This document shows positions 1,645 through 61,826 of a stretch of 64,000 nt of DNA, one piece after another. Each line of letters starts with the position of its first letter. Position 1 is the stretch's first letter. A program made the position numbers and the translations under genes. The stretch lies in contig NZ_FNJA01000002.1 of assembly GCF_900104385.1 (NCBI RefSeq), positions 1 to 64,000 on the forward strand, in the 5' to 3' direction. This DNA is from Rhodoferax sp. OV413 (lineage in GTDB: Bacteria > Pseudomonadota > Gammaproteobacteria > Burkholderiales > Burkholderiaceae_C). The notes below the pieces were generated by a model. The model saw only the letters and a list, made by a program, of their open reading frames with translations, did not search any database and was not told the origin of the DNA.

Positions 1645-1700
1645 GCTACTTAAACCATAGCTTCTCGCGCTTATTCTGTCTGCGCTGGAAGCCATTTTTA
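1645..1700. repeat. Dispersed palindromic repeat, copy 1
   Basis: Contains the core CTCGCGCTTATTCTG...CTGCGCTGG followed by GCCATTTTT, matching the recurring element listed throughout this window. It lies between phhA and the small gene at 1722. Confidence 0.7.
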
Positions 1701-1721
1701 TCTAAAAACAATGGAATCCCC

Positions 1722-1886
1722 ATGGCCGACAAAGCTCCACCCCGCACCCCATCCACGCCGCGGTTCGGGCGTCTTCTGGTGGTCTGCGTGCTGGCGGTGC
1801 TGTTCTGCGGTTTGCTGGTCTGGCTGATGGGCGACCGGTTTGCGGAATGCTGCGACCTGTCGTGGCTGGACCGCTTGAGCCATTGA
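1722..1886 (+). CDS. Small single-pass membrane protein, 54 aa
   Basis: ATG 1722 begins a 54-residue product with a basic, Pro-rich N-terminus (about 1-18), one hydrophobic segment (about 19-39, RLLVVCVLAVLFCGLLVWLM) and a short tail with a Cys pair. A GGAA lies 7 bases before the ATG. An upstream in-frame ATG at 1617 would read through the dispersed repeat and is unlikely. The family is not recognised. It faces the convergent AAA+ gene with 20 bases between stops. Confidence 0.5.
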   Translation: MADKAPPRTPSTPRFGRLLVVCVLAVLFCGLLVWLMGDRFAECCDLSWLDRLSH

Positions 1887-1906
1887 CGCAGGCGAAGAGC
1901 CCGGGG

Positions 1907-4225
1907 TCAGGAGGGCATGAATCCGATGCCGCGGCTCTCGCGCACCTCGGGCTTGATGCGGTGCTCGGCCTCCAGCTGCTCCATGAACTCGTCGGCAGCC
2001 AGCGCGGCATCCAGTATCTCGGCCTGGCGCTTCACCGCGGCGAAGTCGCCGGGGCATAGCTGGTCGAGCCGGGCCAGCCGGGTTTTCAGCACGTCGGTCC
2101 AGCGGCTGGCATCGCCGCCCAGCGCTTCCACCAGGAACATGGTTTCGCGCTGCGTGCGCAGCAGCGGCTTGAACTGGATCTTGAAGGTAAAGCGGCGCAG
2201 CGCCGCCTGGTCGATGCGGTCCAGCAGATTGGTGGTGCAAACGAAGATGCCGCGGTAGCGCTCCATGCCTTGCAGCATCTCGTTGACCTCGGTGACCTCA
2301 TAAGTGCGTTGGGCGCCGCGCCGGTCTTGCAGAAAGCTGTCGGCCTCGTCCAGCAGCAGCACGGCTTTCTCGGCCTCGGCCTCCTTGAACATGGCGGCCA
2401 TCTTTTGCTCGGTCTCGCCCACGTATTTGCTCATCAGGTCGCTGGCCTGCTTGATGATCAGCGGCTTGGCCAGCGCCTGGGCAATGTGCTCGGCCAGCGC
2501 GGTTTTGCCGGTGCCGGGCGCGCCATAAAAGCACAGCGTGCCATGGCCACGCGCCTGCAGCGCCTGGACGATGCGCGGGATTTCAAACCGGCTCTCCACG
2601 TTCAGCATGTCCAGGCTGTAGGTGGTGGACGAGGGGCGCACCGCATGGTCGGCCGCGCCATTGCCCAAGGCCTTGTCGGCGTTCTTCAGTTGGCGGTCGA
2701 TCAGGCCTTCGAGCGTCGCGTCGGCGGCCGGCGCCACCAGGCCGGCAAAGCGCACCGCGGTGCGGATCTGCGCGGGGGTCAGGCCTTTGCGTTCGGTGAG
2801 CTTGGCCACGAAGGCATCGGACACGGCCAGGCCTTCCAGCGTCTTGCGCACCAGGCCTTCGCGGGCACCGGGCGGAGGCGACTTCAACTCCAGGTGGTAG
2901 GCGAAGCGGCGGCGGAACGCCGGGTCGATCTGCTCGATGCGGTTGGTCACCCACAGCGTGGGCACGCTGTTCGATTCGAGGATCTGGTTCACCCAGGCCT
3001 TGCCGCTGACCGAGGCGCTGCCGGGCGCTGTCACCTGTTCGGCGCGGGCCATCAGCTGCGCGGCCTCGGAGCTGATCGGCGGGAACACGTCTTCCACCTC
3101 GTCGAACAGCAGCGCGGCCTGCACGCTGCCCTTGAGAAACACCTGGGCGATCTGCAGCGAGCGGTAGCGGTCCCGGCCGCTGAGCGAATTGCCGTCGCGG
3201 TCGGCGTATTCCACCTCGAACAGATCCAGCCCGGCGGCCTGGGCTACGACACGGGCCAGCTCGGTCTTGCCAGTACCGGGGGGGCCGTAGAGCAACACGT
3301 TGACGCCCGGCTCCTTGCGCGCCACGGCGTTGCGCAGCAGGCTGACCAGCACCTGGGCATCGTCCAGCACATAGGTGAAGTCGGTCAACGCCAGCGCGCT
3401 CTTGGTGGCCGGGCGGGTGAACACGGCCATTAGCTCGCTCTGGTCGCGGTATTCGCGCATCAGCACCGGTGGCAGCTTTTCGCTGACCTTCATCAGGTCG
3501 GCCAGGTCGGTGATGTTGTGCTCGGAGATCAGGTTTTCGACCAGGCCGATGCGCTCCAGCCGGGAGCCGGCGCGCAAGGCTTCGCCGACCTCGGCCGGGC
3601 TGACGCCGGCGACTTCGGCAATCGCCGCATAGGCCTCGGGTGCGTTGTTCACCTTGACCTCGACCAGGATGGTGCGCAGGTCGCGCTGGTAGCGGGCCAG
3701 GGTGCCGTAGAGCAGCAGCGCACGCTCGGCCTTGTTCAGCTGCAGCAGGCCGGACAACGCGTCGATGTTCTTCTCGACCAGGGTGGATTGTTTTTTGAGC
3801 GCGTGGGTCAGCCATTCGCCCGTGACGGCCAAGGCAGATAGCAGGTCTTTGGGCTGGTCCTTGGCGTATTCGTCCAGGTAAAAGAACAGCGTGCCTTCTT
3901 CGTACGGGCCGCGCCAGATGCCGTGGCGTTCCAGAAACTCGGTGGTGCCCAGGGCCGTGTGGCCGCGCCAGAATTCGTTGTCCTTGCAGCGCCGGGACAG
4001 GAATTCACGCAGGCGCAGAAGCACCGGCTGCGGCCACACCAGGTGCCTGCCGGCCATGGCCAGCAGGCTGTTCAGGTCGCGCCGTACATTGAACTTGGGG
4101 CCTTGACGGGCCACCAGGGTCAGCACAAAGTGCGAACACATCAGATCCAGCACCGGCGCAGCCTTCAGCCCCGGCGATGGGATCAGCGGTGCGTGGGCGG
4201 AATCGGAAACCAAGCGCTTCACCAT
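1907..4225 (-). CDS. Tandem AAA+ ATPase, 772 aa
   Basis: A predicted cytoplasmic protein with about 290 residues of N-terminal helical region and two AAA+ modules. Module 1 has Walker A GPPGTGKT at about 314-321, Walker B LLFDEVED at about 372-379 and an Arg-rich FRRRF near 437. Module 2 has Walker A GAPGTGKT at about 568-575, Walker B VLLLDEAD at about 622-629 and an LRRF Arg finger near 676. Both modules look catalytically intact. The start is set at ATG 4225, preceded by AGGAG eight bases upstream; a longer ATG at 4285 has no such site. The substrate is unknown: it could be an unfoldase or remodelling factor. No protease or adaptor gene is adjacent. Confidence 0.85.
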   Translation of the reverse strand: MVKRLVSDSAHAPLIPSPGLKAAPVLDLMCSHFVLTLVARQGPKFNVRRDLNSLLAMAGRHLVWPQPVLLRLREFLSRRCKDNEFWRGHTALGTTEFLERHGIWRGPYEEGTLFFYLDEYAKDQPKDLLSALAVTGEWLTHALKKQSTLVEKNIDALSGLLQLNKAERALLLYGTLARYQRDLRTILVEVKVNNAPEAYAAIAEVAGVSPAEVGEALRAGSRLERIGLVENLISEHNITDLADLMKVSEKLPPVLMREYRDQSELMAVFTRPATKSALALTDFTYVLDDAQVLVSLLRNAVARKEPGVNVLLYGPPGTGKTELARVVAQAAGLDLFEVEYADRDGNSLSGRDRYRSLQIAQVFLKGSVQAALLFDEVEDVFPPISSEAAQLMARAEQVTAPGSASVSGKAWVNQILESNSVPTLWVTNRIEQIDPAFRRRFAYHLELKSPPPGAREGLVRKTLEGLAVSDAFVAKLTERKGLTPAQIRTAVRFAGLVAPAADATLEGLIDRQLKNADKALGNGAADHAVRPSSTTYSLDMLNVESRFEIPRIVQALQARGHGTLCFYGAPGTGKTALAEHIAQALAKPLIIKQASDLMSKYVGETEQKMAAMFKEAEAEKAVLLLDEADSFLQDRRGAQRTYEVTEVNEMLQGMERYRGIFVCTTNLLDRIDQAALRRFTFKIQFKPLLRTQRETMFLVEALGGDASRWTDVLKTRLARLDQLCPGDFAAVKRQAEILDAALAADEFMEQLEAEHRIKPEVRESRGIGFMPS

Positions 4226-4403
4226 GGAAAGGCTCCTAGCAACGAAATGCTTCGTTAGCGGACCATAACGCAGCGCATAGGGCATGGGAAGACTTTGCCA
4301 TTGAAATTTGCCAGAACGCGAACAACTGCCGTTTGCCGATTTAGCACTTCTAGCATTTGCAAGTCCGCTTAGAATTGCGCCGACCCCAGACTAAGGAATA
4401 TCT

Positions 4404-4556
4404 ATGAGCACTCCCCACGCCGATGACCATGGCACGCCAGACCGCGCACCTGCCGATGCTGTCGAATCCATCGTGCCGATGATCCCTATCGTGCTGCCTA
4501 TCGTGGGCGGTGTGCTGATTTTCCTGCTGGCCTTTATCGCCGTCTCCATGGCATAA
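4404..4556 (+). CDS. Small single-pass membrane protein, 50 aa
   Basis: ATG 4404 is preceded by AAGGA at good spacing and opens a 50-codon frame ending TAA 4554-4556. The N-terminal half is acidic and polar (MSTPHADDHGTPDRAPADA); the C-terminal half is one hydrophobic helix (PIVLPIVGGVLIFLLAFIAV). The clear ribosome binding site and the polar-then-hydrophobic layout argue for a real gene. It is divergent from the AAA+ gene. No family recognised. Confidence 0.6.
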   Translation: MSTPHADDHGTPDRAPADAVESIVPMIPIVLPIVGGVLIFLLAFIAVSMA

Positions 4557-4729
4557 GCCATGGCCTAAGGGCCGCCAGCGCTGACCCCGCATGGGTTGGT
4601 TGCTATAGTTTGTAGTGCGCCAGACCCCTTTGTAGGGCTGGCGCGGGGTGTTACGCAACGTAAGACCTGGTTTTCGTCTACCTCCCCCCTCGTGTGCGTT
4701 TTTGCAGCTACTGGTCCAGTTGCATTGGT

Positions 4730-4790
4730 TGCTATTGTTTTAATAGCTCTCTGCGCAATCGTTGTCTGCGCTCGTGGCCATTTTCATTGC
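4730..4790. repeat. Dispersed palindromic repeat, copy 2
   Basis: Shows the full layout TTGCTATT...TAATAGC, then CTGCGC...CTGCGCT, then GGCCATTTT. Confidence 0.7.
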
Positions 4791-7595: not shown

Positions 7596-7724
7596 GTGCC
7601 GTTCTACTTTATCTTTGTGATGATCTTCATTCACAACAGTGATGTATCTCGGAAACTGGACCATGCCTATGGCGCGATGGTTGGTAAGCCCCAGCGCAAC
7701 TGGTTGCCTCAATTTATTCAGTAA
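7596..7724 (+). CDS. Possible small membrane peptide, 42 aa
   Basis: GTG 7596 opens a frame ending TAA 7722-7724. The first 15 residues are strongly hydrophobic (VPFYFIFVMIFIH), followed by a polar tail ending WLPQFIQ. An AGGG lies about 11 bases upstream. The frame has no recognised relative and uses a non-ATG start, so it is a weak call. Confidence 0.25.
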   Translation: MPFYFIFVMIFIHNSDVSRKLDHAYGAMVGKPQRNWLPQFIQ

Positions 7725-7746
7725 AAAATGGCATTTACGCATATTG

Positions 7747-7782
7747 CATCTGCACTAGCAGCTATATAAACAATAGCAATTT
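7747..7782. repeat. Dispersed palindromic repeat, partial copy
   Basis: Carries CTGCACTAGCAGCTAT then AATAGCAATTT, matching one half of the recurring element. Confidence 0.45.
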
Positions 7783-9255: not shown

Positions 9256-10095
9256 ATGAAGATCCAACTCCTTTCCGACCTGCACCTGGAAGTGCACCCG
9301 CAGTTTGTGCCCACCCCTGCCACCGGCGCCGACGTGCTGGTGCTGGCCGGCGACATCGGCTCCTACCAGGCCGGCTCGCAGCTGCTGGACCTGGAGGATG
9401 CCGATTTCGGCCTGGCCCGCTTTTCCCCGCTGCCGCAGTACGCGGGCTGGCCCACGCCCGTGCTGTTTGTGCCCGGCAACCACGAATACGACGGCCTGGA
9501 CTTCGACACCGCCCATATCCGGCTGCGCGCCACCTGCGAGCGGCTCGGCCTGCAGTGGCTGGAGCGCGAAAGCCTGGTGCTGCAAGGCGTGCGCTTCCTG
9601 GGCACCACTCTGTGGAGCGACTTTGATGCGCTCGGCCCTGACCATACCGACACCGAGGCCACCTTGGGGCAGCAGCTGAAAGCCCGCGACAAGGCCTTTC
9701 GCGCGGCCAACTACTATTTGAAAAAGAACAGCGCCACCCGCCAGGGCGAACCCATGCTGGCCGACGCCATTCGCGAACAGGCGCTGGTTTGCCAGCAATG
9801 GCTGCGCAGCGCGCTGGCCGCGCCGTTTGACGGGCCGACCGTAGTGGTGACTCACTTTGCGCCCAGCCTGCACAGCGCCGACCCGCGCTATGGCCGCACC
9901 CCGGGCACGGCCGGCTTCTGCAATGCGTTGGACGCGCTGCTGCCGCAAGCCCGGCTGTGGCTGCACGGCCATCTGCATGCGCCCAGCGACTACGTGCACC
10001 ACGGCTGCCGGGTGGTGGCGAATCCGCGCGGCTATGCGCGCAAGAACGAGCAGCACGCCTTTCTGCCCAGTTACTGCATAGAGCTATCGAATTAA
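9256..10095 (+). CDS. Calcineurin-like metallophosphoesterase
   Basis: The 279-residue protein has the full dinuclear-metal phosphoesterase set: Asp8-x-His10 (SDLHLE), Asp33 (AGDIG), Asn75-His76-Glu77 (GNHE), His200 (VVTHFAPS) and Gly238-His239-Leu-His241 (GHLH). It probably hydrolyses a phosphomono- or diester in the cytoplasm; the substrate cannot be told from sequence. ATG 9256 is the first Met and starts directly at the domain (MKIQLLSDLHLE). Its last codons (ELSN and TAA) fall inside a dispersed-repeat copy shared with the convergent TetR gene. Confidence 0.93.
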   Translation: MKIQLLSDLHLEVHPQFVPTPATGADVLVLAGDIGSYQAGSQLLDLEDADFGLARFSPLPQYAGWPTPVLFVPGNHEYDGLDFDTAHIRLRATCERLGLQWLERESLVLQGVRFLGTTLWSDFDALGPDHTDTEATLGQQLKARDKAFRAANYYLKKNSATRQGEPMLADAIREQALVCQQWLRSALAAPFDGPTVVVTHFAPSLHSADPRYGRTPGTAGFCNALDALLPQARLWLHGHLHAPSDYVHHGCRVVANPRGYARKNEQHAFLPSYCIELSN

Positions 10096-10135
10096 GAGCA
10101 GCTTGCGCTTATCCAATATGCGCTAGCGGCCATTT
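10081..10135. repeat. Dispersed palindromic repeat, copy 3 (shared gene ends)
   Basis: GAGCTATC...GCAGCTTGCGCTTATCC...TGCGCTAGCGGCCATTT. It encodes the last residues and stop of the metallophosphoesterase gene on the plus strand and the last codons plus TAG of the TetR gene on the minus strand. Confidence 0.75.
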
Positions 10136-10749
10136 AGACCCTCAAAGCAGGTGCCCAGCACCCAGTCGATGATCTGGCTGTCGCTGTGCTGGCCGCTGGC
10201 CTGCAGGAAGCCCAGCACCGGGTCGCAGGCGCGCGCATACAAGGTGTAGAGCACCGCAATCGCCGGGAACTGCGGGCTGATCTGGCCGGCCTTTTGCGCC
10301 GCCTGGATCCAGCCGCCCAACTGGTCGCTGACCTGCACCAGCGCTTCCAGATAGGCCTGGTTGCCCATCAGATTCGCCCGCAGGCTGGAGTTCTGGCTGG
10401 GCAGCGACGGCATTTCGCCGGCCAGCTGCACCTCCATGGCCCAGCGCACCATGGCTTTCAGCTTGGCCAGCGGCGTATCGGTAGGCGGCAGGGTCAGCAG
10501 GAACGCCTGGGTGCGGTGCAGCACACGCACCATGGCGGCGGCGGCCAGGTCTTCCTTGCTGGGGAAATGCTTGTACAGGCTGGCCTTGGCAATGCCCACG
10601 CCGGCCGCCACTTCGTCCACCGTCATCGCCTCGAAGCCCTTCTCGGCCAGCAGGCGGTTCACGGTTTGCACGATGGCCTCTTCCCGCGCCTGCAGCATCT
10701 GCTGCTTGAAAGAGACTTTGGGCGATTTGGGCGTGAGGGCGGGTTTCAT
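10123..10749 (-). CDS. TetR-family transcriptional regulator
   Basis: A 208-residue protein with an N-terminal HTH at about residues 24-68 (AIVQTVNRLLAEKGFEAMTV, then VGIAKASLYKHFPSKEDL) and an all-helical ligand-binding domain after it. It is expected to act as a dimeric repressor. It has no divergent target gene immediately upstream: the next gene upstream is the Ala/Ser-rich protein at 11091, divergent across 340 bases of AT-rich DNA, and could be a target. The TAG stop and last codons lie inside a dispersed repeat. Confidence 0.93.
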   Translation of the reverse strand: MKPALTPKSPKVSFKQQMLQAREEAIVQTVNRLLAEKGFEAMTVDEVAAGVGIAKASLYKHFPSKEDLAAAAMVRVLHRTQAFLLTLPPTDTPLAKLKAMVRWAMEVQLAGEMPSLPSQNSSLRANLMGNQAYLEALVQVSDQLGGWIQAAQKAGQISPQFPAIAVLYTLYARACDPVLGFLQASGQHSDSQIIDWVLGTCFEGLNGR

Positions 10750-17763: not shown

Positions 17764-17830
17764 TTGATTTATAAGAAAAAGGCCTGTAGCGCAGGATCTA
17801 CCTGCGCAAGCAGCTACGGTATTCATAGCA
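17764..17830. repeat. Dispersed palindromic repeat, copy 4
   Basis: GGCCTGTAGCGCAGG...CCTGCGCAAGCAGCTA between mdlC and the aldehyde dehydrogenase gene. Confidence 0.65.
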
Positions 17831-17850
17831 AACAACCCTAGGAGACAACT

Positions 17851-21532: not shown

Positions 21533-22534
21533 ATGACAAAATTTATAAAAAATTGGCCTCTGGCGCAGATTACACCAGCGCTAGCAGCTATCACTTTAGG
21601 AGTGGCCGCCTTGCTGCCACTGGCGGCGCTGGCCCAGGCCTGGCCGGCCAAGCCGATCAAGGTGGTCGTCAACTTCCCGCCCGGCGGCGCAGCCGACCAG
21701 ATTGCCCGCGCCATCAGCGTGCCGCTGCAGGAGGCGCTGGGCCAGCCGGTGGTGGTGGACAACCGCGCGGGCGCGGGCGGCAACATCGGCGGCGAGGCCG
21801 TGGCCAAGGCCACGCCCGACGGCTACACCCTGCTGCTGACATCGGGCGGCCTGGTGTCGATCAACCCGTCCATCTACCCGAAGATGAGTTTCAACCCGGC
21901 CAAGGACATCGTGCCGGTGGCCGCCGCCGCGCGGGTGCTGGTGTTCCTGGAGGTCAAGCCCAGCCTGCCGGTGAAGGACGTGAAGGAGTTCATCGCCTAC
22001 GCCAAGGCGAATCCCGGCAAGCTGACCTACGGCTCGCCCGGTAACGGCTCGTCGCCACACCTGGCGGGCGAGATGTTCAAGGACATGACGCAGAGCTTCT
22101 CGGTGCACGTGCCCTACCGCGGCGCAGCGCCCGCGATGCAGGATTTGCTGGGCGGCCAGGTGGACTTTATGTTCGACCCCGGCATCGGCCTGAACCAGGT
22201 GCGCGCGGGCAAGCTGAAACTGCTGGCCGTCGGCAGCCCGCACCGCTCACCGCTGTTCCCCGATGTGCCGACGCTGAACGAAGTTGGCCTGAAAGGCTTC
22301 GACGCCGACACCATCTTCGGCTTCTACGCCCCCGCCGGCCTGCCCGCGGAGATCCTGGCGCGGCTGAATACCGAGATCAACAAGATCCTGGCCACGCAGG
22401 CGGTGAAGGACCGGATTGCCGGGCTGGGTGGCGAGGTGGCGCCGATGACGCCCGCGGCCTTTGGGGCCAAGGCGCACGAGGACACGGCACGGTTTGGCAA
22501 GCTGATCAAGGATCGGCATATCCTGGGCGACTAA
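21533..22534 (+). CDS. Bug/TctC-family periplasmic solute-binding protein
   Basis: A 333-residue exported protein. The mature part carries WPAKPIKVVVNFPPGGAAD, VVDNRAGAGGN, TPDGYTLLLTSGG and HVPYRGAAPAMQDLLGGQ, typical Bug motifs. ATG 21533 follows GGAG. Its signal peptide is odd: codons 4-21 are made of a copy of the dispersed repeat (21541-21597), giving FIKNWPLAQITPALAAIT. It is the last gene of the mandelate operon and the second Bug protein in it. Part of its 3' end is duplicated at 25601-25747. Confidence 0.92.
   Translation: MTKFIKNWPLAQITPALAAITLGVAALLPLAALAQAWPAKPIKVVVNFPPGGAADQIARAISVPLQEALGQPVVVDNRAGAGGNIGGEAVAKATPDGYTLLLTSGGLVSINPSIYPKMSFNPAKDIVPVAAAARVLVFLEVKPSLPVKDVKEFIAYAKANPGKLTYGSPGNGSSPHLAGEMFKDMTQSFSVHVPYRGAAPAMQDLLGGQVDFMFDPGIGLNQVRAGKLKLLAVGSPHRSPLFPDVPTLNEVGLKGFDADTIFGFYAPAGLPAEILARLNTEINKILATQAVKDRIAGLGGEVAPMTPAAFGAKAHEDTARFGKLIKDRHILGD
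21541..21597. repeat. Dispersed palindromic repeat, copy 5, inside a signal-peptide coding region
   Basis: TTTATAAAAAATTGGCCT...CTGGCGCAGATTACACC...GCGCTAGCAGCTATCA matches the intergenic element, yet here it is translated as the N-terminus of the Bug protein starting at 21533. Confidence 0.7.
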
Positions 22535-25532: not shown

Positions 25533-25600
25533 GTTCTGAGAACTGAACCAAATGCGCCGAATCTTAGAGCACTGGGAACAGCCTCCCGTTTACTCAACGC

Positions 25601-25747
25601 GGCGAGATCAACAAGATTGTGGACACGCAAGCAGTGAAGGACCGGATCGCCGGGTTGGGTGGTGAAGTGGCGCCGATGGCGCCCGCGAGGTTTGGGGGGA
25701 ATGCGCATGGGGATGCGGCGTGGGTTGGGAAGTTGATCAAGGAATAG
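25601..25747 (+). pseudogene. 3' remnant of a Bug/TctC gene
   Basis: An open fragment of 48 codons ending TAG 25745-25747 reads GEINKIVDTQAVKDRIAGLG, then GEVAPMAPARFGG and ending GKLIKE. It is colinear with codons 280-330 of the Bug gene at 21533-22534 (TEINKILATQAVKDRIAGLG). It lacks a start codon, signal peptide and most of the binding domain. It lies upstream of the diguanylate cyclase gene, on the far side from the intact copy. Confidence 0.85.
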
Positions 25748-25907
25748 CGGAATTGGGGGATTGAGGTCAGGTTATCGCTACTTTTAATGAAGCAATCTAT
25801 CCAAATGAGGTCTACTTAAATATCGATCATTGCAGTTAAAGTCGTCGCGTCATATCGCAGCCCTTTGCGATATGCATCACTTTATGCCCCGAGGAGAACC
25901 ACATAGC

Positions 25908-26849: not shown

Positions 26850-26864
26850 CCTCTGCAGAACCAG

Positions 26865-35127: not shown

Positions 35128-35185
35128 CGCCAGCAGCTATCGAAAACATAGCTGCTGGCGCTGGTGTTCTGTACGCTAGAAGCCT
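35128..35185. repeat. Dispersed palindromic repeat, copy 6 (with 13-bp hairpin)
   Basis: A 13-bp perfect stem (35128-35140 with 35148-35160; CGCCAGCAGCTAT arm) with a 7-base loop, followed by GGTGTTCTGTACGCTAG. It lies directly after the transaminase stop and could end transcription, although a T tract is missing. Confidence 0.7.
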
Positions 35186-35204
35186 AAGAGGCTAAGAATC
35201 GGGG

Positions 35205-36642: not shown

Positions 36643-36671
36643 GCCCGGCGTGCCGCTTCGTTCGTTTTAGT

Positions 36672-36730
36672 GTTTTAGGCCGCTGGCGCTTATTCCATCT
36701 GCGCTAGCCGCTATTGAAAATATAGCTACT
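36672..36730. repeat. Dispersed palindromic repeat, copy 7
   Basis: GGCCGCTGGCGCTTATTCC...CTGCGCTAGCCGCTATT, then TATAGCTACT. It sits between convergent gene ends and supplies the TAG stop of the adenosyltransferase gene (36726-36728). Confidence 0.8.
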
Positions 36731-37355: not shown

Positions 37356-38780
37356 ATGAACGCCCCCACCGCCCCCCAGCACCTGCTGCCAACCATCGCC
37401 ATCCGCACCATGCCCGCTGCCCTGGTCGAGGCGCTGCAGGCCCGCTTTGGCGCGCAGTTCTCGGTAGCGATGGCGGTGCGCGAGCACCATGGCCGCGATG
37501 AATCCTCGTTCTCGGTGCCACCGCCGGCCGCCGTGGTGTTTGCCGAGAGCACGGCCGACGTGGCCGACGCGCTGAAGCTGGCCAGCGAATACGCGGTGCC
37601 GGTGATTCCCTTCGGCGTCGGCTCCTCACTGGAAGGCCATTTGCTGGCGGTGCAAGGCGGCATCAGCCTGGACGTGAGCCGCATGAACGCCATCCTCAGC
37701 GTGAATGCCGACGACCTGACGGTCACCGTGCAGCCCGGCGTGACACGCAAACAGCTGAACGAAGCTATCAAGGACACCGGCCTGTTCTTCCCCATCGACC
37801 CCGGCGCCGACGCGTCGATTGGCGGCATGTGCGCGACCCGCGCCAGCGGCACCAACGCCGTGCGCTACGGCACCATGCGCGAGAACGTGCTGGCGCTGGA
37901 AGTCGTGACCGCCAGCGGCGAAGTCATCCACACCGGCACCCGGGCCAAGAAGTCCAGCGCCGGCTACGACCTGACACGGCTGATGGTCGGCAGCGAAGGC
38001 ACCTTGGGCGTGATCACCGCCGCCACCGTCAAGGTCTATCCGCTGCCCGAGGCCATCTCGGCCGCCATCTGCTCGTTCCCCAGCATCGAGGCCGCGGTGC
38101 GCTCCACCATCCAGGTGATCCAGCTGGGCGTGCCGATTGCGCGCGTCGAGCTGATCGACGCGAACACCGTGCGCATGGTCAACAGCTACGCCAAGCTGGG
38201 CCTGCGCGAGGAACCGCTGCTGCTGATGGAGTTCCACGGCTCGCCCACCGGCGTGAAGGAACAGGCCGAGCTGGTGCAGGAAATCGCCACCGACCACGGC
38301 GGCCAGGCCTTTGAATGGGCCAGCACCCCCGAGGAGCGCACGCGCTTGTGGACGGCCCGGCACAACGCCTATTTCGCCGCCGTGCAGTCGCGCCCGGGCT
38401 GCAAGGTGATCTCCACCGACACCTGCGTGCCGATCTCGCGCCTGGCGGATTGCCTGCTCGATTCGGTCACCGAGGCCGACGCCTCCGGCATCCCCTACTT
38501 CCTGGTCGGCCATGTGGGCGACGGCAACTTCCACTTCGGCTACCTGATCGACCCCGATAACGCTGAAGAACGCGAGAAGGCCGAACAGCTGAACCACGCC
38601 CTGGTCAGCCGCGCGCTGGCGCTGGAAGGCACTTGCACCGGCGAACACGGCGTAGGCCTGCACAAGATGGACTTTCTGGTCGCCGAGACCGGCGCCGGCG
38701 CGGTGGCCATAATGCGCGCCATCAAGCAGGCGCTGGACCCGCAGAACATCCTGAACCCGGGCAAGATTTTCAAGATTTAA
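37356..38780 (+). CDS. FAD-linked 2-hydroxyacid oxidoreductase (D-lactate dehydrogenase / GlcD type)
   Basis: The 474-residue protein has the PCMH-type FAD domain (VIPFGVGSSLEGHLLAVQGG; IDPGADASIGGMCATRASGT) and the C-terminal substrate cap with GHVGDGNFHFGYLI and CTGEHGVGLHKMDFL, ending NPGKIFKI. It oxidises D-lactate or a similar (R)-2-hydroxyacid and passes electrons onward. It carries no Fe-S region, so it is the single-subunit form rather than a complete GlcDEF. ATG 37356 is chosen over a TTG-like upstream frame. A dispersed repeat follows the stop. Confidence 0.92.
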   Translation: MNAPTAPQHLLPTIAIRTMPAALVEALQARFGAQFSVAMAVREHHGRDESSFSVPPPAAVVFAESTADVADALKLASEYAVPVIPFGVGSSLEGHLLAVQGGISLDVSRMNAILSVNADDLTVTVQPGVTRKQLNEAIKDTGLFFPIDPGADASIGGMCATRASGTNAVRYGTMRENVLALEVVTASGEVIHTGTRAKKSSAGYDLTRLMVGSEGTLGVITAATVKVYPLPEAISAAICSFPSIEAAVRSTIQVIQLGVPIARVELIDANTVRMVNSYAKLGLREEPLLLMEFHGSPTGVKEQAELVQEIATDHGGQAFEWASTPEERTRLWTARHNAYFAAVQSRPGCKVISTDTCVPISRLADCLLDSVTEADASGIPYFLVGHVGDGNFHFGYLIDPDNAEEREKAEQLNHALVSRALALEGTCTGEHGVGLHKMDFLVAETGAGAVAIMRAIKQALDPQNILNPGKIFKI

Positions 38781-38787
38781 ACGTTTG

Positions 38788-38840
38788 AGGGCTCTGGCGC
38801 ATATTCCACCTGCGCGGGTTGCTCTCAAATTAGGAGCAAA
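38788..38840. repeat. Dispersed palindromic repeat, copy 8
   Basis: GGGCTCTGGCGCATATTCC...CTGCGCGGGTTGCTCT between convergent genes. Confidence 0.75.
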
Positions 38841-38846
38841 TTCAAC

Positions 38847-42562: not shown

Positions 42563-43096
42563 CTATTTTTGATTCAGTAACAGCGCCCTGCCCTGCGGCC
42601 AGTCGCCGAGGCCGGATTCGGCATTGATGTGGCCGCGCTCGCCGATGTTGTGCAAGGCCGCACCCCAGTGGTTGGCCAGCTTCGCAGCTGCCTCGAAGCT
42701 GCAATACGGGTCGTCGGTGGACGCCACCAGGGCTGCCGAGAACGGCAGGGCCTGCAGCACCGGCTGGGCCCAGCGGTGCAGCTGGGGCGGGTAGTCGGGC
42801 TGGGCCGTGTCGGGCGGTGCCACCAGCAAGGCGCCCTGCACTTTGCCGAGGCTGCCCGACACCGCGGCCCAGGCCGCCACCAGGTGGCAGCCCAGGCTGT
42901 GCGCCGCCAGCAGAACCGAGCCATCCTGCTGTTGCACCACCTCTTCGAGGCGGGTGATCCAGTCGCCCCGCAGCGGCTGCATCCAGTCGTGCTGCTCAAC
43001 CCGCAGGTCGCCAAACTGGGTTTCCCACAAAGTTTGCCAATGGCTGGGGCCGGAGTTTTGCCAGCCGGGGAGCAACAATACGCGTACAGATGTCAT
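42563..43096 (-). CDS. RBBP9/YdeN-type serine hydrolase, 177 aa
   Basis: A small alpha/beta hydrolase with N-terminal LLLPGWQNSGPSHWQTLWE, nucleophile elbow AAHSLGCHL (Ser in HSLG), a later Asp in VASTDDPYCSF and a His in GERGHINAESG. This matches the RBBP9/YdeN serine-hydrolase family. It lies between parA and parB, a position often held by this family in Burkholderiales. Its substrate is unknown. Confidence 0.9.
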   Translation of the reverse strand: MTSVRVLLLPGWQNSGPSHWQTLWETQFGDLRVEQHDWMQPLRGDWITRLEEVVQQQDGSVLLAAHSLGCHLVAAWAAVSGSLGKVQGALLVAPPDTAQPDYPPQLHRWAQPVLQALPFSAALVASTDDPYCSFEAAAKLANHWGAALHNIGERGHINAESGLGDWPQGRALLLNQK

Positions 43097-43150
43097 TTGC
43101 TATTGATTTAGTAGCTACTTGCGCAGGTAGTACATGCGCCAACGGCCTAT
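43097..43150. repeat. Dispersed palindromic repeat, copy 9
   Basis: TTGCTATTGATTTAGTAGCTAC, TTGCGCAGG...CATGCGCC, then GGCCTATTT, between parA and the small hydrolase gene. Confidence 0.75.
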
Positions 43151-43153
43151 TTG

Positions 43154-43924
43154 TTACATGGATTTGATGCGCAAGACCATTTCTTCGGCGAAATCAACGT
43201 AGGCCACGCTGCCCTTGGCGGAAGGGTCGAACACCACGCCCGGCAGGCCGTAGCTGGGCGCTTCGGCCAGGCGCACATTGCGCGGGATCACAGTGTTGAA
43301 CACCTTGTCGGCAAAGTGCGCCTTCAGCTGGTCGCTGACCTGCTGCTGCAAGGTGATGCGCGGGTCGAACATCACGCGCAGCAGGCCGATGATCTGCAGG
43401 TCCTTGTTCAGGTTGGCATGCACCTGCTTGATGGTGTTGACCAGATCGGTCAGGCCTTCGAGCGCAAAGTATTCGCACTGCATGGGCACGATCACACCGT
43501 TGGCGGCGCACAGGCCGTTCAGGGTCAGCATCGACAGGCTGGGCGGGCAGTCGATCAGCACAAAGTCGTAGTCCTGCGCCACGGCCTCGATGGCGGCACG
43601 CAGACGCTTTTCGCGCCGCTCCATCGCCACCAGCTCCACCTCGGCACCGCTGAGTTCGCGGCTGGAGCCGAGCACGTCGTAGCCGCATTTTTCCGACTTG
43701 ACCCGCGCCTCGGCGATGCTGGCCGACTCCAGCAGCACGTCGTACACCGTCAGCTCCAGGGTCCGCTTGTCCACACCCGAACCCATGGTGGCATTGCCTT
43801 GCGGGTCCAGGTCAATCATCAGCACCCGCTGCCCGACCTTGGCCAGGCCCGCCGCCAGATTCACCGTGGTGGTGGTCTTGCCGACACCGCCCTTTTGGTT
43901 CGCTACACAGAATACTTTGGCCAT
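43154..43924 (-). CDS. parA: Chromosome partitioning ATPase ParA
   Basis: The 256-residue protein has the deviant Walker A KGGVGKTTTTVNLA at about residues 11-24, MIDLDPQGNATMGSG (A' motif) and LIDCPPSLSMLTLNGL (Walker B). It is a ParA/Soj ATPase that moves ParB-bound origin regions. Start ATG 43924 is chosen; an in-frame GTG at 43939 would add five residues. It is transcribed toward the small hydrolase and parB genes, with a dispersed repeat between. Confidence 0.97.
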   Translation of the reverse strand: MAKVFCVANQKGGVGKTTTTVNLAAGLAKVGQRVLMIDLDPQGNATMGSGVDKRTLELTVYDVLLESASIAEARVKSEKCGYDVLGSSRELSGAEVELVAMERREKRLRAAIEAVAQDYDFVLIDCPPSLSMLTLNGLCAANGVIVPMQCEYFALEGLTDLVNTIKQVHANLNKDLQIIGLLRVMFDPRITLQQQVSDQLKAHFADKVFNTVIPRNVRLAEAPSYGLPGVVFDPSAKGSVAYVDFAEEMVLRIKSM

Positions 43925-49008: not shown

Positions 49009-49029
49009 TCCCCGCAGACTTCAAGGTAA

Positions 49030-49086
49030 TTTGCTATTTATTTAATAGCTGTCTGCGCAGCTTCTATCTGCGCTAGCGCCTTGTTT
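49030..49086. repeat. Dispersed palindromic repeat, copy 10 (full form)
   Basis: TTGCTATTTATTTAATAGC, TGTCTGCGC...CTGCGCTAGC, CCTTGTTTTG. This copy shows both the AT inverted pair and the GC core. Confidence 0.85.
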
Positions 49087-49190
49087 TGTATAAATTTTTC
49101 ACCCCTTTCCACGGTCGGCTCGCCGCGCCAGCGACAATCCGGCCGATACCGCTGCATGGTGCGGCGGCCCTCTAGTAAAGACCCAGCTCC

Positions 49191-50126
49191 ATGGCCTCTA
49201 GCCTGCTCGCCCTGATCGACGACATCGCCTCCATCCTGGACGACGTGACCCTGCTCACCAAGGTGGCGGCCAAGAAGACCAGCGGCGTGCTGGGCGACGA
49301 CCTGGCGCTGAACGCCCAGCAGGTCAGCGGCGTGAAGGCCGAGCGCGAGCTGCCGGTGGTCTGGGCGGTGTGCAAGGGCTCGCTGCGCAACAAGCTGATC
49401 CTGGTGCCGGCCGCATTGGCCATCAGCGCCTACGCACCCTGGGCGGTGACGCCGCTGTTGATGGTCGGCGGCGCCTTTCTGTGCTTCGAGGGCTTCGAGA
49501 AACTGGCGCACAAATACCTGCACAGCCCGGACCAGGACGCCGCGGAGCACGCGGCCCGGGTAGCAGCCGTGGCCAACCCGGCAGTAGACCTGGTGGCGCT
49601 GGAAAAAGACAAGATCAAAGGCGCGGTGCGCACCGACTTCATCCTGTCGGCCGAGATCATTGCCATCACCCTGGGCACGGTACAGGACAGCGGCTTCAGC
49701 ACCCAACTCACCGTGCTCAGCAGCATCGCGCTGATCATGACGGTCGGCGTCTACGGCCTGGTGGCGGGCATCGTCAAGCTGGACGACGCCGGCCTGTACC
49801 TGAGCCAGCAGGCCAGCGCCTTCCAGCGCAGCCTGGGCCGCGGCATTCTGGTGTTTGCGCCGTGGATGATGAAGACCTTGTCCGTCGTCGGCACGGCTGC
49901 CATGTTCCTGGTCGGCGGCGGCATCCTGACGCACGGCTGGCCGGCCCTGCATCATCTGGTGGAAGCGCTCACGCAAAAGGCCGCGGACGTGGCCGGCATC
50001 GGCCCGCTGCTGCACACCCTGGCGCCGCTGCTGCTGGACGGCATCACCGGCGTGCTGGCGGGCGCCGCGGTGCTGGCCGTGGTGAGCTTGGTCAAGCGGG
50101 TGCTGCCCGCCAAGGCGGCTGCCTGA
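49191..50126 (+). CDS. DUF808 (YedI-like) membrane protein
   Basis: A 311-residue protein whose N-terminus [20 protein letters not shown], followed by [20 protein letters not shown], is the DUF808 signature, with about four hydrophobic helices (about 75-95, 155-185, 220-250, 280-300). The function of the family is unknown. The gap before it (49009-49190) holds repeat copy 10; a further repeat follows its stop. Confidence 0.9.
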
Positions 50127-50130
50127 GCAC

Positions 50131-50185
50131 TATGCATTTCATAGCGGCTGGCGCTGGTTCTATCTGCGTCAGCGGCCTTTTTCTT
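50131..50185. repeat. Dispersed palindromic repeat, copy 11
   Basis: ATTTCATAGCGGCTGGCGCTGG...ATCTGCGTCAGCGGCC then TTTTTC, directly after the DUF808 stop. Confidence 0.78.
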
Positions 50186-50267
50186 CTGAATTAAACCGGG
50201 TTTTGTCACACAACTGTCACCGTACTGCAAGAGACTTGTCGCTTTGCTCACAGGCACTTGCTGCATC

Positions 50268-51272
50268 ATGGACATCAGCTACGGCTCCGACAAGAACGGC
50301 CTTTTGTGCGGCTACCGGTTTGAAAACGGCGCGCCCGGCCAGCCCGTCGACCTGGCCGAAGCCACCGCCTGGCTGCGCAACGGCCAGGCCAAGGCCGCGG
50401 GAGATTTTGTCTGGCTGCACTTCAACCTCAGCGACGCGGCGGCCGAGGCCTGCATCCGCAAGCACCTGGACGTGGTGCCCGAGTTCTTCGAAGCCCTGCA
50501 CGAAGGCTCACGCTCCACCCGCATCGAGGACGCGCACGACACGCTGATCGCGGTGGTCAACGACGTGGCCTACGAGTTCGCCTTCGACCCGGCCGAGATC
50601 GCCAGCCTGTGGCTCAACGTCGGCCCGCACATGGCCATCAGCGCGCGCTCGCACCCGCTGCGCTCCATCGACCGGATGCGCGCCGCGGTAAAGACCGGCA
50701 AGCCCCTGCCCTCTTCCGTGGCCTTTTTGAACACCTTGCTGCAAGAACAAGGCGACGTGCTGGTGCGCATCGTGCGCGACGCCACGGTGCAGGTGGACGT
50801 GATCGAAGACAAGTTCCTGGTCGGCCGGCTGCAGAACCGGCGCGCCGACCTGGGCAAGCTGCGCCGCGTGCTGGTGCGGCTGCAGCGCCTGCTGGCGCCC
50901 GAGCCGGGGGCGCTGTTCCGCCTGCTGCGGCTGCCGCCACCCTGGATCAGCGAACACGACCTGGAAGAGCTGCGCCAGGCCACGGAAGAGTTCTCGCTGA
51001 CCATCCGCGACATGTCGGAGCTGAAGGAGCGCATCAAGCTGCTGCAGGAAGAAATCGCCGCCCAGGTCAGCGAGCAGACCAACCGCAGCGTCTTCACCCT
51101 GACCATGGTGACCGTGCTGGCCCTGCCGATCAACATCGTCGCCGGTTTGCTGGGCATGAACGTGGGCGGCATCCCGCTGGCCGAGTACCCGCATGGCTTC
51201 ATGGCCATCGTCTCGATGGTGGCGGTATTTACCGCACTGGCCGCCTGGTACCTGTACCGGCGCAAAGACTGA
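50268..51272 (+). CDS. zntB: CorA-family zinc transporter, ZntB-like
   Basis: A 334-residue CorA-fold protein: a large cytoplasmic alpha/beta plus coiled-coil domain, then two C-terminal helices. The family GMN motif is at residues 296-298 (LLGMNVGGIP), immediately before the second helix pair, and the charged tail ends YLYRRKD. The spacing and the soluble-domain motifs (LHFNLSDAAAEACIRKHLDV; LWLNVGPHMAISARSHPLRS) fit ZntB rather than the magnesium transporter CorA. ATG 50268 is the first plausible Met; TTG 50244 is not preferred. Substrate (Zn) is by family analogy. Confidence 0.88.
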   Translation: MDISYGSDKNGLLCGYRFENGAPGQPVDLAEATAWLRNGQAKAAGDFVWLHFNLSDAAAEACIRKHLDVVPEFFEALHEGSRSTRIEDAHDTLIAVVNDVAYEFAFDPAEIASLWLNVGPHMAISARSHPLRSIDRMRAAVKTGKPLPSSVAFLNTLLQEQGDVLVRIVRDATVQVDVIEDKFLVGRLQNRRADLGKLRRVLVRLQRLLAPEPGALFRLLRLPPPWISEHDLEELRQATEEFSLTIRDMSELKERIKLLQEEIAAQVSEQTNRSVFTLTMVTVLALPINIVAGLLGMNVGGIPLAEYPHGFMAIVSMVAVFTALAAWYLYRRKD

Positions 51273-51274
51273 AA

Positions 51275-51325
51275 CTCTATTTTTGATAGCGGCTGGCGCT
51301 TATGCCACCTGCGCTGGCTAGGTAT
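51275..51325. repeat. Dispersed palindromic repeat, copy 12
   Basis: TTTTTGATAGCGGCTGGCGC...CACCTGCGCTGGCTAGG. Its terminal CTA (51318-51320) is the stop codon of the FliD-like gene on the minus strand. Confidence 0.8.
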
Positions 51326-52085
51326 TTGACACCAGGTTTTTGCGGTAGACGGCCAGGCCGAAATCGTAGGCACCGTTGCTGTTGCTGTTGCTGTTGCCGT
51401 TGCTGGTCTGGCTGCTGGTGCTGCCCAGCCCCAGCGACGCCAGCATCGCCTGCTGGGTTTTCAGGATGCTCGACTGCTGGGTCAGCGACGACAGCGCCAA
51501 CCCCAGCGAGCCCTCGGCCCCCAGCGCCTGGGTGGTCACCGCATACACCTGCTGGCCCAGCGTGGCTAGGCTGGCCAGCGCGGCGGTCGGGTCGGCCTTG
51601 TAGCTGGTGTCGAAGGTATTCCGGTCCAGCGCCAGCTTGCCGTCCAGGCCCAGGCTGAAACCCAGGTTCTTCAGCGCATCGGTCATGGGCACATTGGTGC
51701 TCAGCGCGGCCACCAAGTCCTTTCCGGCGCGGCTGGCGTTCTGGGTGGCGGCCGTGGCCTTGGCAGCTACGACCGCGCTGTTGAAGGCCGAGGCCACATT
51801 GCGCACCGCGGTCTGCAACGCCGCAGCCGTGGAGCTGCCGGCCGTGGCCGCACCGTCCAGCGCGCGCGCCGCCACCTGGGTGTCGTACAGCGCGGATTTG
51901 AGCTTGCCAAACGAAGATAGCTGCGCGGTGGTGGTGTCGACCTGCGCCTGGATGCGCTTTTCAGCGCGCTGAAAGCCCGGCTGCGCCGACAGGCCGGCAT
52001 TGGCCGCACTACTCGACGTAACGCGGCTGCGGCTGCCCAGGTACAGGGCCACCGATTGGGCTTTGACGAAGTCGTTGATGTTCAT
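51318..52085 (-). CDS. FliD-like protein (hook-associated protein 2 C-terminal region), orphan
   Basis: A 255-residue protein with no signal peptide. The segment RIQAQVDTTTAQLSSFGKLK near residues 40-60 and GLDGKLALDRNTFDTSYKAD near 145-165, with Ala/Ser/Gln-rich helices between, resemble the body of the flagellar cap protein FliD, but the protein is about half FliD length and lacks the coiled-coil cap end. A Ser/Asn run (SNGNSNSNSNG) near the C-terminus is coded by a GTTGCT-type tandem repeat (51375-51404). No other filament gene is adjacent. Secretion would need a flagellar-type or other export route. Confidence 0.6.
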   Translation of the reverse strand: MNINDFVKAQSVALYLGSRSRVTSSSAANAGLSAQPGFQRAEKRIQAQVDTTTAQLSSFGKLKSALYDTQVAARALDGAATAGSSTAAALQTAVRNVASAFNSAVVAAKATAATQNASRAGKDLVAALSTNVPMTDALKNLGFSLGLDGKLALDRNTFDTSYKADPTAALASLATLGQQVYAVTTQALGAEGSLGLALSSLTQQSSILKTQQAMLASLGLGSTSSQTSNGNSNSNSNGAYDFGLAVYRKNLVSNT

Positions 52086-55922: not shown

Positions 55923-56497
55923 AAACCCTCATCTTCGCGGGTAGCACCCGCCAACAGTCGTACAACCGCCAACTGGCCCACGCCGCGGCACAGCTGGCGA
56001 CCGCCGCCGGGGCCCGGGTCAGCCATATCGAACTGGCCGACTTCGACATCCCCATGTACAACGCCGACCTGGAAGCCAAGGGCACGCCGCCCGATGTGCT
56101 GCGCCTGAAACAGCTGATGTTCGAGCACCCAGCCTGGATCATCTGCGCGCCCGAGTACAACGGCAGCTATACCGCGCTGCTGAAGAACACCATCGACTGG
56201 GCCTCCAGCCCGGTGAAATCCGACCCGGTATGGAAGGACGGCTTTCGCCCGTTCAGCGGCAAGGTGGTCGGCCTGCTGAGTGCCTCGCCCGGCGGCCTGG
56301 GCGGCCTGCGCTCGCTCAGCCATCTCACGCCCTTGATGATGAACCTGCAATGCTGGGTGGCGCCCAAGCAATTCGCCCTGGCCCGCGCCTTCGAAGCCTT
56401 TGCCGAAGATGGCAGCCTGAAACAGGACGCGCACCGCGCCGGCGTGCAGGCCGTGGTTGACCAGGTGCTCTGGGCGGCGCAGAAACTACATGCCTGA
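55919..56497 (+). CDS. NADPH-dependent FMN reductase-like flavoprotein
   Basis: The 192-residue flavodoxin-fold protein begins MKTLIFAGSTRQQSYNRQLA and has the CAPEYNGSYTALLKNTIDWA motif, like the enzyme at 47382. It overlaps the AraC gene by 4 bases (ATGA) and is translationally coupled to it. A repeat copy follows its stop. Confidence 0.9.
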   Translation: MKTLIFAGSTRQQSYNRQLAHAAAQLATAAGARVSHIELADFDIPMYNADLEAKGTPPDVLRLKQLMFEHPAWIICAPEYNGSYTALLKNTIDWASSPVKSDPVWKDGFRPFSGKVVGLLSASPGGLGGLRSLSHLTPLMMNLQCWVAPKQFALARAFEAFAEDGSLKQDAHRAGVQAVVDQVLWAAQKLHA

Positions 56498-56499
56498 TG

Positions 56500-56552
56500 G
56501 GCCGCTGGCGCTTATTCCACCAGCGCCGGCAGCTCTTAAATAAATAGCAAAA
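56500..56552. repeat. Dispersed palindromic repeat, copy 13
   Basis: GGCCGCTGGCGCTTATTCC...CCAGCGCCGGCAGCTC then AAATAGCAAAATT, directly before the YkgJ-type gene. Confidence 0.75.
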
Positions 56553-57999: not shown

Positions 58000-58403
58000 C
58001 CGGGCTGGACCAACCCCGATGGCACTTTACGCAAAATTTGCAATAAAGCAGCCAAATCGGGGTTTTGCGCAGTCATAAGCTGCGCTGACAGCTATTAAAA
58101 GTATAGCAATAAGCCACTGAACCGGAGTTTTACACATCCCTTTCTGGTTGGCGGACTTTTTGCATTGGCTATTCTTCTAATGTAGTTATTAATACATAGT
58201 AGTAGTAGTAAGCATCGCGCCCGTCTGTGGGTAAGCCCGTTTTATGCTTTGCAATCAAGGGCTTACATTGTGTTGTGGCCTGTGTGTGACCTTGACTTTC
58301 TGGTGTCACGCAAATATGAACAACTTTGCGGCGCGTGCATCTCCTGTGGATAACTACCCGGTTGTTCCGAAACTATCCACAGCTTTTTAAACATAGGACA
58401 GAT
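58000..58403. other. Intergenic region with four DnaA-box-like 9-mers (404 bp)
   Basis: This gap holds a long-loop hairpin just after the OYE stop (58012-58020 with 58056-58064, ending in TTTT), a partial dispersed repeat (58070-58110), an AT-rich stretch with TTATTAATAC and four TAG repeats (about 58170-58215), and 9-mers matching the DnaA box: TTTTACACA (58128-58136), TTACCCACA on the minus strand (58226-58234), TTATCCACA on the minus strand (58345-58353) and CTATCCACA (58373-58381). No gene is seen in it. Confidence 0.5.
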
Positions 58404-59075: not shown

Positions 59076-59106
59076 AAGCCAGCGCTGGCAAATGCGCTGG
59101 CTTTTT
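59076..59106 (+). terminator. Rho-independent terminator after the FrnE-like gene
   Basis: AAGCCAGCG (59076-59084) pairs with CGCTGGCTT (59095-59103); a 10-base loop and a TTTTT tail complete it. Confidence 0.82.
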
Positions 59107-59190
59107 ACTTTGTGCACATTGACGGTGCATTTTTGTACGCAATCTACGGTTTGCATTGGATGCAGAGCTGGCACGGCCTATGCATAGGCC

Positions 59191-60261: not shown

Positions 60262-60300
60262 AAAATTTTCCCCTACCGCAACCCCCTAGGAGTTTTCACC

Positions 60301-61584: not shown

Positions 61585-61587
61585 ATA

Positions 61588-61700
61588 GGCTCACCCCCAG
61601 GCTTGCCCACTGCGTGTGGCAGCGCCAACCCCCTTGCAGGGGGCGATACCAGCGGCACGGCAAAGCCGGTTCCGCGGTATCCCACGAGGGGGCGTTGCTG
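61588..61700. repeat. Second dispersed-type repeat with nested hairpins
   Basis: A GC-rich block after the binding-protein stop: CCCCC (61629-61633) pairs with GGGGG (61639-61643), and GATACC (61645-61650) pairs with GGTATC (61676-61681) around GGC/GCC. From memory such blocks recur in Comamonadaceae genomes, but only one copy is in this window. Confidence 0.45.
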
Positions 61701-61717
61701 CGCTCGCCTCGTTTGGG

Positions 61718-61757
61718 GGCATTCCTTTCACTTCCCTGGTGATGTGAAAGGAATGCC
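61718..61757. other. 14-bp perfect intercistronic hairpin
   Basis: GGCATTCCTTTCAC (61718-61731) and GTGAAAGGAATGCC (61744-61757) enclose a 12-base loop. It separates the binding-protein gene from the permease genes; there is no T tract after it. Confidence 0.85.
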
Positions 61758-61773
61758 GGAAATTTAAATGAAA

Positions 61774-61826
61774 TCGGGTTCTAGCGCATATTTCACCTGC
61801 GCTGGCAGCTACGATTTTGATAGTAA
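61774..61826. repeat. Dispersed palindromic repeat, copy 15
   Basis: GGGTTCTAGCGCATATTTCACC...TGCGCTGGCAGCTACG, then GATTTTGATAG, directly before the permease gene. Confidence 0.75.

Follow-up and report, generated by a model that had tools for sequence, protein, structure and literature searches.

A dispersed palindromic repeat at gene ends in Rhodoferax, with an inherited frame and a core that follows the lineage

This report concerns a short palindromic repeat that occurs 16 times in the first 64,000 nucleotides of contig NZ_FNJA01000002.1 from Rhodoferax sp. OV413. The stretch is called the window below, and the genome it comes from is G000 (other G numbers denote compared genomes). The repeat forms a family of dispersed copies placed mainly at the 3' ends of genes, mostly at sites held in common with related genomes. 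It has two parts. The outer frame is inherited along with its site, and only the 27-bp core takes a form characteristic of the lineage (a dialect), including in copies that form part of the coding sequence of two genes, purK and tilS. Our preferred reading, to which we give a probability of about 0.5, is that of a two-part element found across the bacterial family, in which an inherited 3'-end frame carries a core that is kept to the lineage dialect by a trans-acting process.

The repeat family and its two parts

The 16 window copies align in register over 67 columns, with gaps at the ends only, and eight of them point one way and eight the other. Their consensus is TTGCTATT-N5-AATAGC-TGCT-N-GCGC-N11-GCGCYAG-N-GGCC-TATTT. 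The outer frame consists of the AT hairpin GCTATT-N5-AATAGC, GGCC and the T tract, and the inner core is a 27-bp GC palindrome, about GCTNGCGC-N11-GCGCYAGN. The whole element is about 65 bp long, with a G+C content of 0.33-0.52 across the window copies. A covariance model was built from these copies. With the speed filters off they score 48.5-70.1 bits, and the next match, on the opposite strand of a copy, scores 23.9 bits; the window scores are circular because the model was made from the same copies. Independent evidence comes from the search of the own genome, which gave at least 150 matches, all with E <= 6.3e-15, at least 141 of them outside the window (these lower bounds come from per-genome match lists). 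An earlier note on this DNA had described one palindromic family with about 16 copies in the window, and the alignment and the own-genome matches confirm it. Of the two sequence words given there, the first has 15 matches against 6.9 expected, a number reached in none of 100 shuffles, and does better than the second, CTGCGCTAGC, which with one mismatch has 20 matches against 11.3 expected, reached in 1 of 100 shuffles and thus weak evidence.

A 464-kb sample of the own genome holds 68 non-overlapping copies (E <= 1e-4). The window is rich in the element, because 16 of these fall in its 64 kb and 52 in the remaining 400 kb. The mean density in the sample is 1.47 per 10 kb, and extrapolation gives a genome total of roughly 800. 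The window has no Rfam match at gathering thresholds. No published description of the element was recognised in a mostly non-subscription literature, in which the element words occur only in papers on subjects other than bacterial repeats, as judged by titles and the starts of abstracts.

The earlier note had proposed a scan of related genomes with a covariance model, and this found the family in 73 of 200 sampled genomes of the bacterial family, own genome included, and in 51 of 126 genera (E <= 1e-6). A draw from the order gave matches in 6 of 250 genomes, five of them from the family (own included) and one, a weak match, from outside it; at the looser E <= 0.001, one of eight relatives outside the family has a single weak match. 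Homologues of a window protein are closest in Polaromonas, Variovorax, Acidovorax and like genera among the named genomes, and the element-bearing family is probably Comamonadaceae. In G001, of the same genus and 73% complete, there is a single match, and G008 has none in the search of relatives at E <= 0.001. Matches in 80 named loci are few and weaker (24 at E <= 0.01). Distant dialects are under-detected because the model was trained on a single genome.

The two parts were compared between group A (G000, G002, G005, G006), with a core consensus of about GCGCAGgT..aAt.TGCGC, and group B (G003, G007), with about aCGCT.AT..aATaAGCGC. Further different cores occur in G121, G122, G185 and G210 (9-14 copies each) and in G099 and G190 (15 top copies each). 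With G+C at 0.632-0.644 in the A and B samples, composition does not explain the dialects. Column-wise counts were made on full-length 63-nt copies with complete flanks only, which were 175 of 189 deduplicated copies in a first set, and 61 of 68 in G000 and 114 of 127 in G003 in a later one. Some weak matches among the counted copies may be chance, and the gene calls (dicodon scores and dynamic programming) and alignments were automatic.

Thirty-five orthologous pairs of G000 with G003 or G007, in which many sites are counted once with each B genome, were compared with shuffled pairs. Orthologous copies resemble one another in the flanks (z of 7.8 and 8.5), the AT hairpin (5.0-6.4), GGCC (4.2) and the tail (5.7-6.4), and the Jensen-Shannon (JS) divergence between the lineages in these parts is 0.006-0.015. 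The core behaves differently: its orthology signal is unclear, with z of 1.8 in the left arm, 0.7 in the loop and 0.8 in the right arm, and its lineage divergence is 0.068, 0.158 and 0.038 respectively. Models trained on copies from elsewhere assigned those at orthologous sites to their own lineage in 40 of 42 cases for A and 38 of 38 for B, both misassigned copies being in G002. When single copies were left out in turn (125 a side), the core was placed correctly in 235 of 250 cases, against 136 for the AT hairpin and 142 each for the tail and the flanks; with shuffled labels about half were right. Assignment to the right one of six genomes succeeded for 174 of 218 copies using the core, 68 using the AT hairpin and 78 using the tail. 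These figures supersede a smaller test of the dialects, in which 37 of 38 assignments at 10 sites chosen by hand were right.

Some orthology signal remains in the core when the closer pair of G003 and G007 is compared (z about 4, 17 sites). At 41 sites common to the two genomes, differences per base are fewest in the AT hairpin (0.130), followed by the tail (0.229), the core (0.264) and the flanks (0.308); the idea that the core evolves faster than the flanks, which had come from 17 pairs, was rejected on these figures. We conclude from the comparisons that the frame is inherited by descent, and that the core is homogenised within the lineage. One of the two misassigned copies, L169:5156 in G002 (group A), has a clear B-type core in a neighbourhood arranged as in G003 and G007, and was perhaps transferred.

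Copies inside called genes make up 49 of the 295 copies with called neighbours. The stronger such matches in the own genome lie in purK, tilS, hrpA-like, EamA, flavoprotein and HlyD-like genes and in two genes of no given identity, and purK and tilS were compared across genomes. In both, the element is common to the readable genomes of the genus, G004 included, except in G001, where the corresponding part is of similar length and unrecognisable sequence; G006 gave no match for tilS. The purK and tilS cores match the dialect of their own lineage in 11 of 11 A and B copies. The proteins change with the dialect: in TilS, LAQAESAQ of G000 corresponds to LALIPSAQ of G003 and G007, and in PurK, LAQVESAL of G000 corresponds to LPLMEQAV of the same two genomes. 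The change in the core overrides the protein sequence, which argues for a process at the level of the DNA. Weak in-gene matches (below 35 bits), for example L038:14929 and L047:11911 in genes that are presumably trmE and dsbB, look like chance; they were kept in the counts and not used as evidence. Two element matches fall within a ComEC match in two genomes of one genus, G190:C1:561388-561450 (34.5 bits) and G099:C5:4151-4206 (26.3 bits).

Gene ends, common sites and RNA structure

The position of the copies relative to genes was counted over 14 genomes in gaps of at least 40 nt, including some stretches picked around strong matches, which biases the counts toward presence. The element occupies 76 of 134 convergent gaps, 140 of 667 tandem gaps and 18 of 229 divergent gaps (Fisher test, convergent vs divergent p 1.6e-24, tandem vs divergent p 2.9e-6). 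In tandem gaps it sits close against the upstream gene's 3' end either way round, at a median of 5 nt in the sense and 16 nt in the antisense orientation, and the next start follows at a median of 59 and 71 nt respectively. The conserved tail is often followed directly by the stop of the opposite-strand gene; in the own sequence, 11 of 37 of these stops fall within six positions.

In the window, 13 of the 16 copies lie no more than 75 nt from a called 3' end, in agreement with the placement that the earlier note had described. Its stronger statement, that the repeat supplies gene ends, holds for five of the 16 copies, which contain six called stops (10095 and 10123 in one copy, then 36726, 43154, 51318 and 56497), and not for the rest. 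The first two are the stops of both genes of a convergent pair within the copy 10079..10141, as claimed. The stops that had been placed inside repeats for an adenosyltransferase and a FliD-like gene are there too, at 36726 and 51318; the FliD label is not borne out, as Pfam gives nothing at E <= 0.001 for gene 51318-52085.

Sites were treated as orthologous if the copies had the same relative orientation and a gene offset within 60 nt, in stretches syntenic with G000. In G002, G003, G005, G006 and G007 the element is present at 61 of 69 orthologous sites and absent at 8, and many offsets are identical or nearly so. An exception is the cobA copy of G007, which points the opposite way. In G001, G004, G008-G011 and G121 it was found at 4 orthologous sites and not at 19. 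At the ParA-like gene of G004 and G009 the AT hairpin is still recognisable by eye and the core looks degenerate, and on the 3' side of the FAD-oxidase gene two of five relatives that lack the element (G009, G010) have, by eye, ordinary intrinsic terminators instead.

The earlier note had seen the repeat as a mobile unit of the kind known as a miniature inverted-repeat transposable element (MITE), which settles at stop codons. Copies are many and dispersed, some contain stops, and 8 of the 69 sites are not common. The element has inverted repeats, and a few orthologous ends without it were read. However, most sites are common within the genus, often with little or no difference in offset and orientation, and the frame is inherited separately from the core. 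The comparison of orthologues that the note had suggested as a check on whether insertion changed stop codons gave a divided answer. The FAD-oxidase gene stops at aligned residue 474 both in G000 with the repeat and in G008-G011 without it, the TetR gene stops at residue 208 in G000 with the repeat and in G004 without it, and the C-terminus of cobA varies among orthologues. The unmoved stops of the first two genes are part of what the note itself had named as speaking against its view. The element does not look like a recent MITE, and its sites are mostly ancestral. The MITE view is largely refuted for recent time, and we regard it as very improbable as an explanation of the family; an ancient spread is possible.

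The RNA of both strands folds better than mononucleotide shuffles in 61 own copies (mean z -2.5 and -2.8), and on either strand 4.2-4.3 of the ten bases that follow the stem are T. With a crude terminator score, strong values are commoner at element ends than within operons or coding sequence. A function at 3' ends in both directions is likely. With stable folds on both strands and moderate T tracts, and with apparent ordinary terminators at the FAD-oxidase gene of G009 and G010, which lack the element, the role in termination that had been suggested for the repeat is plausible, and the element would mark probable transcription ends in this bacterial family.

It could be proposed that RNA structure is all there is, such that transcription or 3' processing selects the same shape at every site and the copies are alike for this reason. 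The location at 3' ends, the stable fold of both strands and some covariation in the stem (z of 4.1 for pair 33-53, shuffling within genomes) agree with this. However, covariation is weak at most pairs and in the 16 window copies does not rise above shuffles, and stem pair 34-52 is an A-C combination in 62 of 279 copies. The use of G-U and A-C wobbles is also independent of gene direction, as is expected either if both directions matter or if it is the DNA that is read. Selection on shape leaves the dialects of the loop and those in coding sequence unexplained, and we consider an explanation through RNA alone improbable.

Three minor observations concern the structure. In a larger set, AAA stands in place of TTT in 14 of 74 convergent copies, which is odd for a terminator. 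An alternative pairing of AATAGC with GGCCTATT was considered and set aside, as it has no clear covariation. An orientation by replication strand was likewise rejected: eight of eight classifiable window loops have the purine centre on the same strand, but further blocks, from G000, G003 and G007, mostly mix the two orientations.

What may keep the core uniform

We propose that the outer frame is an ancient structure of gene 3' ends, passed on vertically, whose most likely role is to help end transcription in both directions. The 27 bp of the core would be held to the lineage form by a process that acts on core DNA anywhere, at fixed sites and even in reading frames. The most likely process is a putative sequence-specific trans-acting factor that recognises the core and favours or propagates the current word, much as the receptors of DNA uptake sequences (DUS) do. 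Site history and core history are separable within one short element, the purK and tilS copies included. This makes the element a testable case of genome-wide rewriting of short bacterial DNA words without a transposase of the RAYT type (discussed below), and it could reveal a system for uptake, recombination or DNA binding in a large environmental family.

Several results weigh against this proposal. No acting factor was found. Identical 11-nt loops are shared by 75 pairs of copies in G003 against 3.5 expected, and the eight loop-flank positions within one loop class by 76 pairs against 29; such shared haplotypes suggest that cores are copied from one another rather than selected one site at a time by a binding factor. 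At element ends the terminator score is strong in 26-30% of cases, no better than the 20-29% at convergent ends without the element, and the T tract (alignment index 63-65, after GGCC) is block-swapped for AAA in 18 of 175 copies. Group B is represented by two genomes, so that the contrast between A and B may be one shift on one branch.

The loop haplotypes would fit a passive form of ectopic conversion, in which stalled forks or breaks let the palindromic arms of one copy anneal to those of another and the loop is transferred, no specialised recogniser being involved; the dialects would then be the ordinary drift of a homogenised family. It is consistent with this that the homogenised part is only that flanked by the GC arms, that haplotypes are common to several copies, that core differences between G003 and G007 are overdispersed over 41 sites (variance 10.9 vs 5.2 for a binomial), and that loop centres occur in both orientations. 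On the other hand, 27 bp between unlike flanks is, by established knowledge, a short tract for homologous conversion, and the process would need to act at hundreds of sites, some of them coding. Complementarity between the two arms of a copy sometimes fails. G005 has a weak haplotype excess, as do G007 and G000 when a single loop class is considered; the AT part and tail also have an excess of near-identical pairs, so the excess is not specific to the core. Passive conversion is possible, and a trans-acting factor and the overwriting of cores between copies remain close to each other as explanations.

Short palindromes with many copies can also be spread and refreshed by a Y1 transposase, as in the repetitive extragenic palindromic (REP) sequences, their hairpin-forming doublets (REPIN) and the REP-associated tyrosine transposase (RAYT). 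There is one Y1_Tnp match in each of G000, G002, G003, G005 and G007 and a weak one in G004, and a degenerate element lies at the 3' end of the Y1 gene in G007, G000 and, weakly, G003. Y1 is commoner in the element-bearing genomes of the family (63 of 72 vs 88 of 127, p 0.0035, ignoring phylogeny). Five of the 47 genomes with at least 10 element matches nevertheless have no Y1 match (E <= 0.001), and G099 and G190, of one genus and without a Y1 match, show a coherent dialect among their 15 top copies each. In four of five loci read, the Y1 gene is instead flanked on both sides by inverted repeats of its own, of the GGGGTCAG type, which have at most two partial matches in the 464 kb of own sequence. 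The element model, searched over the Y1 loci with about 1.5 kb each side, finds degenerate 3' copies only and none flanking both sides. A RAYT is not needed for the element or its dialect, and its role as the agent of spread is quite improbable. At all five loci (L187-L191, in the order G007, G003, G002, G005, G000, at about 1200-2200), the single RAYT-like Y1_Tnp gene is followed by the same open reading frame (MTTAAEIQYL...), which we take to be glutamate synthase.

Among other known repeats, the BIME-type (bacterial interspersed mosaic element) repeats at 3' ends in E. coli act as bidirectional terminators or gyrase sites. They share with the present element the palindrome, the 3'-end position and the use of either orientation, and are not known to share its sequence. 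The Rickettsia palindromic elements are in-frame palindromes inside protein genes. Here, by contrast, coding copies are a minority, and those of the two genes tested carry a core in the lineage dialect. REP/REPIN-RAYT systems are described in PMC8049555 as short, high-copy, mainly extragenic and persistent palindromes. That much is similar, but the present element has no need of a RAYT, stands at mostly fixed ancestral sites, and has a frame and core that evolve apart. The only repeat of this bacterial family that we met in the literature is BRE, of Bordetella and other betaproteobacteria including Comamonadaceae, which PMC3110155 likewise presents as dispersed and mostly intergenic, with some copies in genes. 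At about 90 bp and 69% GC it is set apart by this description from an element of about 65 bp and 33-52% GC.

The closest comparison for the core is with DUS and the uptake signal sequences (USS) of Neisseriaceae and Pasteurellaceae. PMC3630211 and PMC1852404 describe dialects, inverted pairs at terminators and words inside genes for the DUS of Neisseriaceae, and both kinds of sequence share with the present element dispersed copies, inverted pairs at gene ends, in-gene copies and lineage words. The DUS and USS words are about 9-12 nt long and occur in thousands, whereas here a 27-bp palindrome sits in an inherited frame of about 65 bp, at about 1.5 per 10 kb in G000 and mostly at 3' ends. Lineage dialects over conserved sites, a feature of DUS, are present in the element. 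A dispersed single word is not seen: in a k-mer scan of the 464 kb no dispersed half-word stands out, and element words lie mostly within elements (TCTAGCGCA 15 of 15, AGCAGCTAT 15 of 22). We tentatively suggest that the core may be the word recognised by a trans-acting DNA system of this bacterial family that is new to description, for example an address for uptake or recombination, like a third kind of uptake sequence unrelated to DUS and USS, an idea we consider rather doubtful. Such a system would rewrite hundreds of fixed sites when its specificity shifts, overriding protein sequence in housekeeping genes. ComEC is found in 195 of 200 family genomes, and being nearly universal cannot discriminate the element-bearing ones.

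The window copies and further repeats

The copies in the window are listed in Table 1.

Table 1. Copies of the element in the window, with core position, model score and gene context (Pfam: identity from a Pfam match)
Copy	Position	Strand	Core	Bits	Context
1	1641..1703	+	1663-1689	57.1	61 nt past gene 681-1580
2	4727..4789	+	4749-4775	61.7	
3	7719..7781	-	7733-7759	58.6	sole window copy in a divergent gap
4	10079..10141	+	10101-10127	60.2	stops of convergent metallophosphoesterase and TetR genes inside (Pfam)
5	17771..17833	-	17785-17811	64.7	12 nt past TPP-enzyme gene
6	21545..21607	-	21559-21585	63.1	
7	35132..35194	+	~35154-35180, right arm degenerate	49.5	amid convergent aminotransferase and EamA genes
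8	36668..36730	-	36682-36708	63.7	contains cobalamin adenosyltransferase stop; copies adjacent to the orthologous gene in G002, G003, G005, G011, reversed in G007
9	38779..38841	-	38793-38819	59.2	FAD-oxidase gene end; also in G002, G003, G005, G006, G007
10	43095..43157	+	43117-43143	66.8	contains ParA-like stop; also in G002, G003, G005, G007
11	49029..49091	+	49051-49077	70.1	past DUF2164 gene (Pfam)
12	50125..50187	+	50147-50173	66.7	past DUF808 gene (Pfam)
13	51270..51332	+	51292-51318	48.5	past CorA gene (Pfam); contains stop of gene 51318-52085
14	56490..56552	-	56504-56530	67.5	contains FMN-reductase stop; offset -7 nt also in G003, G005, G007
15	58049..58111	-	58063-58089	56.7	50 nt past Oxidored_FMN gene
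16	61766..61828	-	61780-61806	65.2	orthologous copies in G003 and G007

Two other repeats were noted. In two copies of the element 4.7 kb apart (L048:3819-3894 and L048:8499-8574), the AT hairpin is swapped for the same long perfect hairpin, GCTCCTGTTTTTGA...TCAAAAACAGGAGC. The window also contains a direct repeat of 141 nt at 22372-22512 and 25603-25743, the two copies being 82% identical and 3.2 kb apart. The second of these sits in a stretch without a called gene, about 25533-26864, which is perhaps the remnant of a duplicated gene.

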